A stretch of 64,000 nucleotides of DNA. It comes from Coriobacteriia bacterium (GTDB taxonomy: Bacteria > Actinomycetota > Coriobacteriia > Anaerosomatales > Anaerosomataceae). The DNA is taken from NCBI GenBank assembly GCA_030652115.1, contig JAUSBK010000007.1, positions 186,001-250,000 of the forward strand. Reading direction: 5' to 3'. A program made the position numbers and the translations under genes. A model generated the notes under the pieces. The model did not search any database. It was not told the origin of the DNA and saw only the letters and a program-made list of their open reading frames with translations. Of the stretch, positions 5,454 to 42,513 are shown piece after piece. Numbering within the stretch: position 1 is the stretch's first letter; the number at the start of each line of letters is the position of its first letter.

Positions 5454-5483
5454 GTAGCGGCGACACCGCCGCGTCTATTCATT

Positions 5484-5507
5484 GAGGTCCACCTTCGGGT
5501 GGGCCTC
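5484..5507 (+). promoter_or_regulatory. Very stable TTCG-capped hairpin just upstream of the integrase
   Basis: GAGGTCCACC (5484-5493) pairs with GGTGGGCCTC (5498-5507) over ten positions, one of them G-U, around a TTCG tetraloop. It lies 19 bases before the integrase ATG and is followed by TTGTCGTTT. It could be a terminator insulating the integrase from upstream transcription, or an attenuator in its own leader. Confidence 0.55.
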
Positions 5508-5526
5508 TTGTCGTTTGGAGGCAGAA

Positions 5527-6579
5527 ATGGCACTGATCAAGAGAGGCGACAGGTTCCATGCGGTCTTGTACGACGCCAACGGCAAGCAGCGTTGGTTCGC
5601 ACTGGGTACGGATCGACGAGCCGCGAAGCGGCGTCATGACGAGCTGGTGGTCGAACTCAGGAACGGCGAACGCAGTGAGCCGTCCAAGATGACCTTCAAG
5701 GACTACTCGATTCAGTGGCTCCGTGATTACGGGGCGGTCCGTCTCAAGCCCTCCACGTACAGAAGCTACGAGATCTACCTCCGCGTTCACCTGGTTCCGT
5801 TCTTCGGGACCACGAGGCTGAAGGACATCACGCCTCACCAGGTCCAGCGCTACGTGTCGTCCAAGGCTGCGACCACGGCACCCAAGGCGATGCGCAATCA
5901 GATGGTCGTGATGAAGAAGATGATGTCGACAGCTGTGGACTGGCAGCTTCTTCAGCGCAATCCTGCCGCCACGGTCACCCTTCCTCGGGTACCACAACCT
6001 GAGATCGCGTTCCTCACTCCTGCTCAGATGAGGCTGCTGATCGAGGTCACGCCTACCAGCAGGAAGGCGATGATCGCCATGGCTTGTCTTACGGGTATGC
6101 GCAAGGGCGAGATCATGGGTCTGAAGTGGGACTGCGTCGACCTGGAGGAACGGGCAATCACGGTCAAGCGATCTGTCTACGCCTGTGTCGTCCAGGAGCC
6201 GAAATCCAAGCGGTCCATCCGCGTTCTCCCGATGCCCGATGCTCTGTATGAGCTGCTATCAGTAGAAGCGGAGACTGACGGTCCAACCCCGACTCACTTT
6301 GTGTTCAGCGGCACTGAGGATCCGATCGCCAACACGCTACCCAACAAGGTGCTCAATCGTGCGCTCAAGAAGGGGAAGCTCCCGACGGTCACGTTCCACG
6401 GACTGAGACATTCGTTCGTGGCTGCTCACATCGCGGCTGGCACTCCGCTGAAGGCGATTCAGGATATGGCTGGCCACGCATCCATTACGACCACGATGGA
6501 TAGATATGGCCACCTGCTGCCCCAGGCGAAAGCTGAGGCAGCCAAGGCGATACAGGACGCCGTTTTCGGTGACGGATAG
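5527..6579 (+). CDS. int: Site-specific tyrosine integrase
   Basis: The 350-residue product starts at ATG 5527 with TTTGGAGG upstream; an in-frame ATG at 5482 lies before the hairpin and lacks a site. It has an AP2-like arm-binding N-terminus (about 1-50), a SAM-like core-binding domain (about 60-145) and a C-terminal catalytic domain. The active site is complete: R192 in TGMRKGE, H291 and R294 in HGLRH, H317 in AGHAS and the nucleophile Y327 in DRYGH. It lies 177 bases from the tRNA-Leu fragment at 6756-6810, the likely attachment site. It should integrate and, with an excision factor, excise the element. Confidence 0.95.
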   Translation: MALIKRGDRFHAVLYDANGKQRWFALGTDRRAAKRRHDELVVELRNGERSEPSKMTFKDYSIQWLRDYGAVRLKPSTYRSYEIYLRVHLVPFFGTTRLKDITPHQVQRYVSSKAATTAPKAMRNQMVVMKKMMSTAVDWQLLQRNPAATVTLPRVPQPEIAFLTPAQMRLLIEVTPTSRKAMIAMACLTGMRKGEIMGLKWDCVDLEERAITVKRSVYACVVQEPKSKRSIRVLPMPDALYELLSVEAETDGPTPTHFVFSGTEDPIANTLPNKVLNRALKKGKLPTVTFHGLRHSFVAAHIAAGTPLKAIQDMAGHASITTTMDRYGHLLPQAKAEAAKAIQDAVFGDG

Positions 6580-39419: not shown

Positions 39420-39494
39420 GGGCGCTTAGCTCAGGGGGAGAGCACTTCCTTGACGCGGAAGGGGTCAGAGGTTCAAATCCTCTAGCGCCCACCA
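39420..39494 (+). tRNA. tRNA-Val (GAC)
   Basis: The plus strand folds with acceptor GGGCGCT/AGCGCCC, anticodon loop TTGACGC (anticodon GAC), T arm AGAGG-TTCAAAT-CCTCT and an encoded CCA; 75 bases. A -10-like TACAAT lies at 39390. Its last 13 bases and the next base recur at 41414-41427. Confidence 0.96.
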
Positions 39495-39495
39495 T
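39482..39495 (+). repeat. 14-bp direct repeat, copy 1 (end of tRNA-Val)
   Basis: CTAGCGCCCACCAT is the 3' end of tRNA-Val plus one base. An identical copy lies at 41414-41427, 1.93 kb downstream. The two copies bound a segment holding one large and one tiny zinc-ribbon gene. Confidence 0.7.
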
Positions 39496-39510
39496 AGAAA
39501 CTGCAGTGAG

Positions 39511-39560
39511 GGGCCGTGTTTCGGGAAACCGAGGACGGCCCTTCGCCCCGCTACGGGGCG
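39511..39560 (+). terminator. Hairpins after tRNA-Val
   Basis: GGGCCGT (39511-39517) pairs with ACGGCCC (39535-39541), and a second hairpin CGCCCCG-CTA-CGGGGCG spans 39544-39560. Neither has a good T tract. Nothing else is seen in the next 250 bases except a TTGACT at 39743 that could be a -35. Confidence 0.4.
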
Positions 39561-39817
39561 TCGGGGATCTCTCGCATGTCGCTGTTCCATGTGGTCGGTT
39601 TGCGAACCCATTTCCCAGGGTAGGACATGTAGTTGGGGGTGTGGGAATCAAGGGGCGGCGTCCGCCACACTACTCACACCGAGAGCGACAGTGAGGCAGA
39701 ACGTCTGTCGTCGACTCTCAGCGCGGGTGTCCGTGCCGTGCGGTTGACTTGTGACCTGCTGACGCGCGCGGCTTCGTGTCGGCACCCGGTAACGACTGCC
39801 GAGGGGGGTGGCTCACG

Positions 39818-41086
39818 ATGGCCATGGCGGGGTTCTGCAGCGCGTGCGGCGAGAACGTGTGGCTCACGGAGTCGGGTGGCTGCACACGAGGCCACTCACC
39901 CGATCAGATCATCAACGCGTACGAGGCTGACGTAGCGCCTCCAGTGACCGAGCCTGAGCTGGCTGCCGCCGCTGTCCCCGAGGCCGCCGCAGTGCCGTCC
40001 TCCGGGCCGATGATGCCCGCGGAACTCGGCGCGCGCAAGCGGTTCCTGACCTCACCCATCGTGATCATCGGCGGGGTTGCCGCGCTCCTCCTAGTCGTGG
40101 TGCTTGCGGTCGTCTTCTTCCCGAGGCCGAAGATCGCCGTCACCGGTTTCACGGTGCCGGAATCAGTCTTGAGCGGCGAGGATATCGTGGCCACGGTCGA
40201 GATCGCGAACACGGGTTGGGCCAAGGGCGACTATCCGCTGACGATCCTCATGGATGGAGCTACCGTCAACGGGCAGTCAGTCAGCGTGGCCGCGAGGTCG
40301 CAGAAGCGCGTCGAAGTCACCATACCCGCAGGCGGGATTTCCGGCTCGTACGACATCTCGGTCGCCGGATGGGACGGGCCGGGGGACACCGTGTGGGTCA
40401 TGGCGCCTGCGGAGTTTGTCGTGGATTGGCTGGAGGTCACGCCGGATCCGCTGGACGTCAACACGAGTAGCCAGGCGACGGCAGAGGTCAGCGTTTCGAA
40501 CATCGGCGACGTCGAGGGCGACTACGTCATCAGCCTCACCGTGGACGGAGCGGTGGTCGAGGAGCGCACGATTCACCTCGAGGCTGAGTCGACCGCAGAG
40601 GAGTTGTTCACATTCGCGGTGAGCGGTCCGGGCTCGCACGAGGTCGCGGCGGCCGACCAGGTCGCAACGCTCGACGCACATCAGATCCTGCGTCCCGACA
40701 ATGGAACGGTTCTCATCAATCAGCTAAGCGGAGGGTCGAACGTCTTCACGGTTGTCAACAACAGCGAAGACGACGTGTTCGTAGTGATCTCGCAGCCGGG
40801 GGAGGCGCAGCCGGCGCTCCTTGCGGTGTATGTGACCGCTCAAAACGCCACCTCGGTCCGCGGAGTACGGGACACGACGTACGTCTGCTACTACATGGAA
40901 GGAGCCGGCTGGTGCGGGCACTGCCAGAGGTTCACGGAGGCGTTTGACTACGGTCGTTTCGATGCCACCGGCGAGCTCAAGAGTGGCGGCGGGATGTACA
41001 CGGAGTCGGTCGTGACGTTCGGCATCAAGGAAGGCGACGGGACGCCGACCGAGAGCGTCGGCGAGGAGGACTTCCCGACGATGTAA
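39818..41086 (+). CDS. Membrane protein: N-terminal zinc ribbon and CARDB-type domains
   Basis: I start this at ATG 39818 behind GAGGGGGG, giving 422 residues. The N-terminus is a compact zinc-binding motif (FCSACGENVWLTESGGCTRGH: C-x2-C...C-x3-H). A proline/alanine linker, one membrane helix (about 90-115) and two beta-sandwich repeats of CARDB type (ATVEIANTGWAKGDYPLTI... and AEVSVSNIGDVEGDYVISL...) follow. A C-terminal domain with a CGHC motif (AGWCGHCQRF) ends it. The soluble part should be outside the cell. CARDB domains often mediate adhesion. It sits between the two 14-bp repeats. Confidence 0.7.
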   Translation: MAMAGFCSACGENVWLTESGGCTRGHSPDQIINAYEADVAPPVTEPELAAAAVPEAAAVPSSGPMMPAELGARKRFLTSPIVIIGGVAALLLVVVLAVVFFPRPKIAVTGFTVPESVLSGEDIVATVEIANTGWAKGDYPLTILMDGATVNGQSVSVAARSQKRVEVTIPAGGISGSYDISVAGWDGPGDTVWVMAPAEFVVDWLEVTPDPLDVNTSSQATAEVSVSNIGDVEGDYVISLTVDGAVVEERTIHLEAESTAEELFTFAVSGPGSHEVAAADQVATLDAHQILRPDNGTVLINQLSGGSNVFTVVNNSEDDVFVVISQPGEAQPALLAVYVTAQNATSVRGVRDTTYVCYYMEGAGWCGHCQRFTEAFDYGRFDATGELKSGGGMYTESVVTFGIKEGDGTPTESVGEEDFPTM

Positions 41087-41167
41087 GGATGCCAGTTCGG
41101 TTCGCCACCGACTCCTCGAACGGTTGACCGGGCCCGACGGAATCGGGCAGACCGCAGGAGGCGCACG

Positions 41168-41284
41168 ATGGCCAAAGTCGTGTACTGCTCTGAGTGGCAG
41201 GGGCAGGTCTTCGTCATGCCCGACGGCACCTGCTCCAACGGACACGGCGCTCAATACCTTTCCGCATTCGGCGACGTAGGGTGA
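41168..41284 (+). CDS. 38-residue zinc-ribbon-like protein
   Basis: ATG 41168 follows CAGGAGGCGC with ideal spacing and runs 38 codons to TGA. The product (beginning MAKVVYCSEWQGQVF, then GTCSNGHG) aligns with the N-terminal zinc ribbon of the preceding 422-residue protein (FCSACGENVW...GGCTRGH). It keeps the first Cys, the later Cys and the His, but has a single residue pattern CSEW where CSAC would be. It may be a free-standing paralogue of that ribbon or the left-over start of a second copy. Confidence 0.55.
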   Translation: MAKVVYCSEWQGQVFVMPDGTCSNGHGAQYLSAFGDVG

Positions 41285-41413
41285 CTATCGCCCGCTCAAG
41301 GCGTCTGGCGGCAACACACGTGCTACCAGTGGACGGATTGAGTGTCGGAGCAGGGACTGCAGTGGGGCCGACAATCCCTGCGTCATGGCATCGGTGAGGT
41401 CACAAATGCATCC

Positions 41414-41427
41414 ACTAGCGCCCACCA
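41414..41427 (+). repeat. 14-bp direct repeat, copy 2 (tRNA-Val 3' end remnant)
   Basis: CTAGCGCCCACCAT is identical to 39482-39495. The preceding bases (GAGGTCACAAATGCATCCA) look like a decayed T arm of tRNA-Val (GAGGTTCAAATCCT). A strong terminator follows ten bases later, as expected behind an original tRNA gene. Confidence 0.65.
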
Positions 41428-41437
41428 TGATGAAGCC

Positions 41438-41466
41438 AGGGCCCCGGATCCGTCCGGGGCCCTTTC
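41438..41466. terminator. Bidirectional terminator
   Basis: AGGGCCCCGGA (41438-41448) pairs with TCCGGGGCCCT (41453-41463) around TCCG, followed by TTCG. It separates the plus-strand segment from the convergent lipid-kinase gene and may be the original tRNA-Val terminator. Confidence 0.7.
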
Positions 41467-41470
41467 GCAT

Positions 41471-42430
41471 TCAGGAGCTGGCCTCGGAGTCGAGGACAGG
41501 CTCGCCGAAGTCGTCGCGCGGTAGCGGCGCTTCCTCGGACACGATCAGAGTCGCGGCACGTGGAATCACTCGCGCCGAGAAGGGCGTCGTCCCTTCGAGC
41601 ACCTCGCCGTCGTACTCGAGTGGCAGTCGCGGCGTTGCGGTCACCTCGACGGACGAGGCGGTGTGGACTTCGAGCCCGGGACGTTCCGGATGTGCACTGA
41701 GCCGATCGAGCAGGGCGGCCCAGACGGCCGGGAGCAGGCCTGCCGCGGACATCGGTTTGACGACCACGACCTCGAAGAGGCCGTCCTGGGCATCCGCACC
41801 GTGGGTCACCGCGAGGTCGAACTGGATGCGCGCGAGGTTCATGAGCAGTACCGCGATGCCCTCGGTTTCGACGGTCCGGCCGTCGAGCGTCAACGTGAAC
41901 GCCGAGGAAGTGGGGTTGAGGTTCTGGATCGCACCGATGATGTACGCGCCCTCGCCGAGCGTTGCCTTGAGGGGGTGCGCAGCCTCCATGATCCGGGCGT
42001 CGAACCCGGCGCCGGCAGCGATGGAGAAGCCGTACTTGCGGGCGATATGGCCGCCGGAGGGGGGAATCGTCAGCTCGCCCAGATCGATCGTCACGGTTCG
42101 CCCGGCGATGGTCGCCAGCGCGAGCTCGACGGGGTCGATCGGGATGCGCAGGTTCCGGGCGATCAGGTTGGCGGTCCCTGCGGGGTACGGGAGCACGGGG
42201 ATGCCGGTGTCGCGCAGCGCGTAGGCGACGGCCGAGACCGTCCCGTCGCCGCCCGCCGCGACGATGCGCGCGTAGTCGCGGGCATCGCGAAGCAGGTGCT
42301 CCACGTCGGCATCCTCGCTGAGGAAGCGCATGGTGACCTCGACGCGGTGAGCGCCGAGTTCGCGAACGTACTCGGTAAGCCCCGAGTCACCGAACCCCGA
42401 TCGGAGGTTGGTGACGATGAGGATGTTCAT
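41471..42430 (-). CDS. Diacylglycerol/lipid kinase family protein
   Basis: The 319-residue product starts at ATG 42430 behind GAGGAGG. It has the DAGK catalytic motif AAGGDGTVSAVAYAL, the PAGTANLIARNLRIP segment and a C-terminal beta domain (LPLEYDGEVLEGTTPF). Such enzymes use ATP to phosphorylate diacylglycerol or related lipids for phospholipid recycling. It is divergent from the RNase D gene with an 83-base gap that should hold both promoters. Confidence 0.9.
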   Translation of the reverse strand: MNILIVTNLRSGFGDSGLTEYVRELGAHRVEVTMRFLSEDADVEHLLRDARDYARIVAAGGDGTVSAVAYALRDTGIPVLPYPAGTANLIARNLRIPIDPVELALATIAGRTVTIDLGELTIPPSGGHIARKYGFSIAAGAGFDARIMEAAHPLKATLGEGAYIIGAIQNLNPTSSAFTLTLDGRTVETEGIAVLLMNLARIQFDLAVTHGADAQDGLFEVVVVKPMSAAGLLPAVWAALLDRLSAHPERPGLEVHTASSVEVTATPRLPLEYDGEVLEGTTPFSARVIPRAATLIVSEEAPLPRDDFGEPVLDSEASS

Positions 42431-42513
42431 CCAGCCTCCTCGTGCGGTCGCAGCCGTTCGGCTACACTCAAACGGCACCCCGCGCGACCCCGACACGTCA
42501 TTCCGGAGGTCCA

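Follow-up and report, generated by a model that had tools for sequence, protein, structure and literature searches.

A recombinase-less segment at a tRNA-Val gene of a Coriobacteriia bacterium and its possible composite origin

The segment behind tRNA-Val and its genes

The window, i.e., the whole stretch of 64,000 nucleotides that was analyzed (G000:C7:186001-250000), is part of a genome of 2.38 Mb in 14 contigs. It contains a tRNA-Val(GAC) gene, the 3' end of which, CTAGCGCCCACCAT, occurs a second time downstream (Table 1). The initial annotation had described this 14-bp repeat and its recurrence after 1.93 kb, and this was confirmed: both copies are exact, and the two matches compare with a mean of 0.00 in 100 dinucleotide shuffles. 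When extended, the repeat comprises 19 nt with one mismatch (39477-39495 and 41410-41428). The insert has a length of 1933 bp and corresponds to positions 39496-41428 or to a circular permutation thereof; its GC content, 0.63-0.67 in windows of 500 bases, is slightly under that of the flanks. A strong terminator had been noted after the right copy, and a hairpin of -29 kcal/mol (z -4.5) indeed follows this copy directly and represents the native tRNA-Val terminator in relatives. A second hairpin (-39.9 kcal/mol, z -4.9), which was absent from the initial annotation, lies directly 3' of the left copy. A simple terminator scan had no match for either hairpin.

Table 1. Features of the segment and its immediate surroundings (positions in the window)
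Feature	Position	Strand	Basis
tRNA-Val (GAC), insertion site, 3' end left intact by the insert	39420..39494	+	ARAGORN, Rfam
Left copy of the 14-bp repeat (19 nt, 1 mismatch, from 39477)	39482..39495	+	
Left end of the insert: GAAACTGCAGTGAGGGGCC hairpin tail, without arm repeats behind it	39496..39560	+	homology to G012 left end and G035 tail; fold
ORF A, 422 aa, cargo	39818..41086	+	
ORF B, 38 aa, probably a truncated gene	41168..41284	+	likeness to the first 35 residues of ORF A; 32-nt DNA repeat
Block before the right copy, GAGGTCACAAATGCATC, probable large-serine-recombinase half-site (consensus GTTCGAAGYGCNTC)	41396..41412	+	
Right copy of the repeat, displaced tRNA 3' end	41415..41428	+	
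Native tRNA-Val terminator, directly behind tRNA-Val in relatives	41429..41475	+	flank comparison, fold
Native neighbor gene, used to locate empty sites	41471..42436	-	match in 60 of 61 genomes

Two zinc-ribbon genes had been assigned to the segment, of which one stood as a full gene. This is ORF A, the sole intact gene, which combines a zinc-ribbon-like start with one transmembrane helix and two CARDB (Ig-like) domains (PF07705, 7.6e-8), while its C-terminal part had no match. It is a surface protein and the cargo of the island. The structure model is mediocre (mean pLDDT 67.8), and its fold matches are presumably generic proteins with beta-sandwich parts. Full-length relatives are found in four of 296 genomes of the class, the own genome included; the carriers among the relatives are metagenome-assembled genomes labeled Actinobacteria, Coriobacteriia or Slackia, and in the other three no tRNA gene lies within the 12-18 kb that were fetched. 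The start module by itself is common: 35 of 61 genomes had some match to ORF A, most of them to this module only. Several other assignments were rejected: ORF A had no match in 50,697 phage records, none in viral contigs and none to the defense genes of PADLOC, and the matches in four plasmid records were partial and covered only the CARDB or C-terminal parts.

The second assigned gene, ORF B, did not hold up as a full gene. Its 38 codons resemble the start of ORF A (11 of 35 residues identical, E 0.002), and C-S-E-W stands at the place of the zinc-ribbon CxxC. A 32-nt DNA repeat accords with this likeness, and ORF B is probably a truncated gene, a zinc-ribbon-like stub. Neither ORF is a transfer gene. 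As annotated before, the segment has no recombinase; tblastn with eight tyrosine and three serine recombinases had no match in it, and neither a recombinase gene nor a C-terminal stub was found by tblastn behind tRNA-Val in the segment.

Occupied and empty sites in relatives

The tRNA scan covered the 30 loci that were returned for the neighbor gene, which we take to be diacylglycerol-kinase-like, out of the 60 genomes with a match. An empty site, consisting of tRNA-Val(GAC), the terminator and the neighbor gene, was found in three of the four relatives of the same genus (G001, G002 and G003) and in two further genomes of the family (G010 and G019), and thus the arrangement of the window is not common to all relatives. 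In the fourth genome of the genus (G004) the tRNA and the neighbor gene are on different contigs, a genome of the order (G030) has a stretch of 0.5 kb between them, and other relatives have further genes at this place, one of which is presumably cell-wall-binding/YkuD-like. When the tRNA was joined to the right flank of the window, the comparison with G001 gave 138 identities, 10 mismatches and 7 gap positions.

In addition, the 70 nt behind each copy of the repeat were compared with the sequence behind tRNA-Val(GAC) in 27 relatives. The left tail matched G012 (score 63) and G035 (score 48), each with 0 of 500 shuffles as good; no other of the 27 reached this value, and the next best was G023 with 3 of 500. 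The right flank matched G013, G003, G026, G016 and G001, all with 0 of 500 shuffles. Because the left tail is like the tails of elements and the right flank is like native flanks, the insert supplied a new tail and displaced the native terminator by 1.9 kb. By these comparisons the right flank is native, and the left flank arrived with the insert. The site-specific insertion at tRNA-Val that had been proposed is borne out by the empty sites, and the sequence comparisons identify the segment as such an insertion, placed between the tRNA 3' end and the native terminator and duplicating the tRNA end.

The two ends of the segment

The left tail is 87% identical over 47 nt to the left end of a tyrosine-integrase element at tRNA-Val of G012, and the window thus has, directly behind the tRNA, the conserved left tail of the family to which this element and those of G020 and G049 belong. 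A search with the tail gave matches in eight of 69 genomes, and in six of the seven other than the own genome the match lies directly behind a tRNA. The G012 element has a length of 8.1 kb and is closed by a displaced tRNA half of 46-50 bp; its 382-aa tyrosine integrase gene adjoins the tRNA, and it also encodes an AAA_25 protein and a tape-measure protein. The element at tRNA-Val of G020 measures 6.4 kb and has an integrase that is 59% identical to that of G012, and G049 has an 8.5-kb element at tRNA-Val(CAC), in which the integrase reads in two pieces and which also encodes an AlpA-like HTH protein, a primase/helicase-like ATPase, a head protease, a major head protein and a tape-measure protein. 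These tRNA-integrated elements of 6-9 kb with tyrosine integrase, AlpA-like HTH protein and primase/helicase-like ATPase are likely a family of phage satellites in Coriobacteriia; no conjugation genes were noticed in the related elements seen. An integrase with 49% identity is found at tRNA-Pro of G028. Integrases of the G012 family are present, at E<=1e-60, in eight of 69 genomes of the order, and at this threshold there is none in the genome of the window.

Paired arm repeats of 9-12 bp are located behind the left tails in G012, G020, G028, G035, G049 and G050; none were found at either end of the window segment, nor in G006 and G021. Long displaced tRNA copies are present in G012, G020 and G049; in the window a displaced tRNA half of about 46 bp is absent from the right end, which has the 19 nt with one mismatch instead. 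The motif ACTGCAGTG at 39500 and 41356 was rejected as an arm site, as it occurs no more often than by chance (16 of 100 shuffles). The locus of G006 (L121, 430-6030) has, behind tRNA-Val(GAC), a type IIG restriction enzyme-methyltransferase and the candidate defense gene PDC-S11, and no recombinase and no second tRNA end were found there.

Tails of this kind were also sought across the class. With the pattern CCACCA-N0-4-AAACNGCAGGT, which joins a tRNA end to the tail, 65 places were found in 58 of 396 genomes, compared with three for a reversed control. Thirty of the 65 loci were examined, and a tyrosine integrase lies within 1.5 kb on that side in two of them. Several integrase-less loci keep perfect arm repeats of 10-12 bp, for example at tRNA-Val of G191, where the gene just behind is presumably rpsT, and such integrase-less tails with arm repeats are fossil left ends. 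The argument from a GCAGGT tail to a tyrosine integrase is weakened by the occurrence of the pattern throughout the class also at tRNAs without a nearby integrase. As some of these tails also lack arm repeats, a part of them may be native terminators.

Fifteen of 396 genomes of the class have a second type of tail (AACGCCCCTTTGGGGTCTCT...), with 18 occurrences altogether. In 17 of these the tail stands behind a tRNA gene or a tRNA-like 3' end, mostly tRNA-Val and also tRNA-Ala. In G002, G010 and G060 a large serine recombinase of 477-480 aa lies behind this tail, with its end reading toward the tRNA; the G002 protein has the domains PF00239, PF07508 and PF13408. At most of the other places tblastn revealed only a C-terminal recombinase stub of 18-76 residues, and at the place in G067 no stub match was found. 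Displaced tRNA ends that are preceded by GTTCGAAGYGCNTC form the right ends of this serine type. A tRNA tail with 52 identical nt is shared by G024 and G049, two genomes of different families, and consists of the 3' end of a large serine recombinase gene and a terminator.

Nine serine-type units, that of the window included, are delimited on both sides; they were collected by means of search patterns and should not be read as an unbiased sample, and their lengths were taken from coordinates. Three units have a full recombinase (G002, about 4.8 kb; the first unit of G010, 3.7 kb; G060, 6.3 kb), four have a stub (G014, 1.85 kb; G032, 1.37 kb; G044, 3.3 kb; the second unit of G010, 1.28 kb), and two have neither (that of the window, 1.93 kb; G040, 1.24 kb). 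A full recombinase is thus missing in six of the nine, and recombinase-less units of similar size that are bounded by displaced tRNA 3' ends do exist in relatives. The G014 ORF is 48% identical to the G002 recombinase over 105 aa (tblastn), and its assignment as a recombinase end had no support from Pfam, PDB, PHROGs or NCBIfam. G056 has a serine-type right end without a paired tRNA. Outside the window, at G000:C7:176040-176200 (right end C7:176167), the own genome has a second displaced tRNA-Val-like 3' end, with no tRNA within 1.5 kb. Directly upstream of it are a hairpin that terminates in GTTAGGC, presumably attC-like, and two ORFs, of which the first is presumably DUF262-like.

The block before the right copy had initially been interpreted as a decayed T arm. 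A recombinase half-site fits better, though weakly (p about 0.001-0.002), and the block is likely the half-site of a large serine recombinase, as suggested by its ungapped alignment to serine-type right ends, not to the tRNA. Matrices trained on other serine-type right ends were scored over the 127,966 positions of the window. With eight other right ends as training set, 221 positions score as high as GAGGTCACAAATGCATC, and 125 positions do so if the training set is restricted to the four loci in which a recombinase lies in or behind the unit. A matrix from ten loci gave 12 positions, but the search pattern that led to two of these loci derived in part from the window; this figure is therefore not independent, and 221 and 125 are the fair ones. 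In leave-one-out scoring the units with a full recombinase reached at least 12.9, and the window, with 4.8-9.7 depending on the training set, was below all of them. The sequence of tRNA-Val itself at the place of the half-site scores -11 to -13. When gaps were allowed, the alignment of the block to the tRNA half or T arm was equaled by 197 of 19,907 random placements (p about 0.01). The 14-bp cores at both ends are identical, the match of the right half-site is modest, and arms of the tyrosine type are missing.

Origin of the segment and relation to known systems

The two ends are like the ends of two different types of elements, and therefore an accretion of two elements followed by a deletion is the preferred reading. 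The segment would be a composite, recombinase-less island at tRNA-Val, in which the middle with both recombinases was deleted; we assign a probability of about 0.5 to this reading. A large-serine-recombinase element would have inserted first, through the T arm, and left the right copy and the half-site beside the native terminator. The same tRNA would next have taken up a satellite-like tyrosine-integrase element, the source of the present tail, ahead of the first one. Finally, a deletion would have run from immediately after this tail into the second element; both recombinase genes would have been lost with it, as would the arm repeats and the internal att sites, and ORF A would have been retained. 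This sequence of events, each step of which we infer for the window itself, accounts best for the combination of mixed ends, absent recombinases and arms, and a truncated ORF B. Single steps have counterparts in relatives: in G049 a displaced 3' end closes a tyrosine-type element, and a serine-type tail with the stub of a recombinase comes after it; G010 has a GCAGGT tail behind a serine-type right end; and the four stub units have lost the recombinase and kept their ends. An undeleted tandem at this tRNA-Val site was not found in the relatives, and the segment has no direct trace of a deletion junction.

It is less probable, and we regard it as unlikely, that the segment is the remnant of a single tyrosine-integrase satellite, in which an internal deletion, reaching in from the cargo, removed the displaced 46-bp tRNA half except for its last 19 bp. 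The left tail and the gapped, T-arm-like alignment fit such a remnant, and integrase-less left-end remnants are frequent (e.g., G021, G191, G241, G367). The likeness to the serine type would then have arisen by chance, and against this stands the ungapped alignment of the block to serine-type right ends, not to the tRNA.

A movement of the segment in trans was also considered. The initial annotation had suggested mobilization by a tRNA-targeting integrase, and this found no support: the genome has no second copy of the segment, it has no tyrosine integrase of the cognate family at E<=1e-60, and arm repeats are missing at both ends. The genome has seven PF00589 stretches in six ORFs. They were rejected as integrases acting in trans, being 25-31% identical to the G012 integrase and none of them close; one lies beside tRNA-Pro, two between tRNA-Asn and tRNA-Met, and none beside tRNA-Val. 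The window itself has a phage-type tyrosine integrase gene at 5482-6579, and no att-like flanking repeat of it was recognizable in 30 kb.

Alternatively, the segment could be a non-autonomous mini-element with both att sites that a co-resident element moves in trans with its large serine recombinase, an option to which we give a low probability. The window has both the tRNA side and the right half-site, the six units without a full recombinase have lengths of 1.2-3.3 kb, and the junction in G010, a serine-type right end plus a GCAGGT tail, is of the kind that a circle of the segment would form. However, the right half-site is weak, no serine recombinase was found in the 136 kb examined of this genome, no second copy exists in it, and the family of ORF A, present in four of the 296 class genomes, is elsewhere not near tRNA genes. 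Speculatively, the segment might belong to a group of recombinase-less mini-islands of 1.2-3.3 kb with few cargo genes, which would move between tRNA-Val, tRNA-Ala and similar genes of Coriobacteriia via the large serine recombinases of full-size islands and could adopt the tRNA tail of an unrelated tyrosine-integrase satellite; they would be a site-specific counterpart of MITEs. That no insertion took place, and that the arrangement is ancestral and was lost in the relatives, is highly improbable, as nothing but the single occurrence of the segment favors it, and the empty sites in three genomes of the genus and two other genera of the family, the element-type tail at the left only and the native terminator at the right only speak against it.

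The tRNA genes of this order are landing sites common to two unrelated recombinase families, and many units at these genes have lost the recombinase but retain both ends and the cargo. Should these units still be capable of movement in trans, a large part of the annotated core sequence beside tRNA genes is mobile; if they are not, the tRNA tails are fossils that record past insertions. A report of these Coriobacteriia elements was not found among the listed titles and abstracts of the open literature.

Among the known satellite families are the capsid-forming phage satellites (cfPICI; PMC11389934). The tyrosine-type element of G049 resembles them, as read from its genes, in having an integrase, an AlpA-like HTH protein, a primase/helicase-like ATPase, a head protease, a major head protein and a tape-measure protein at a tRNA, whereas the window segment keeps only the left tail of such an element. 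The nearest known kinds are CIMEs and the ssrA islands of Dehalococcoides. CIMEs (cis-mobilizable elements) have lost the integration and transfer genes, have kept attL and attR, and arise in tandems (PMC5704250). Integration and transfer genes are likewise absent from the window segment, as judged by tblastn and ORF content; in contrast, CIMEs are relics of ICEs or IMEs, the sources of the window segment look like phage satellites and serine-recombinase islands, and its att sites are putative. The Dehalococcoides islands are small and inserted at the 3' end of an RNA gene, with a 20-bp displaced repeat that is preceded by a conserved motif not alignable with the RNA gene; they form tandem arrays, the serine recombinase DsiB inserts them at the T loop, and an integration module is given for 16 of 31 islands (PMC3146451). 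The right ends described here agree with their motif, TTCAGRSMGMRKCCA, in 9 of 15 positions for the window and in up to 13 of 15 for the others; the value for the window is not significant, as 4.6% of positions do as well. The Dehalococcoides islands target ssrA and the window unit targets tRNA-Val; in further contrast to these islands, the window unit lacks a recombinase and has the left tail of a tyrosine-integrase element.
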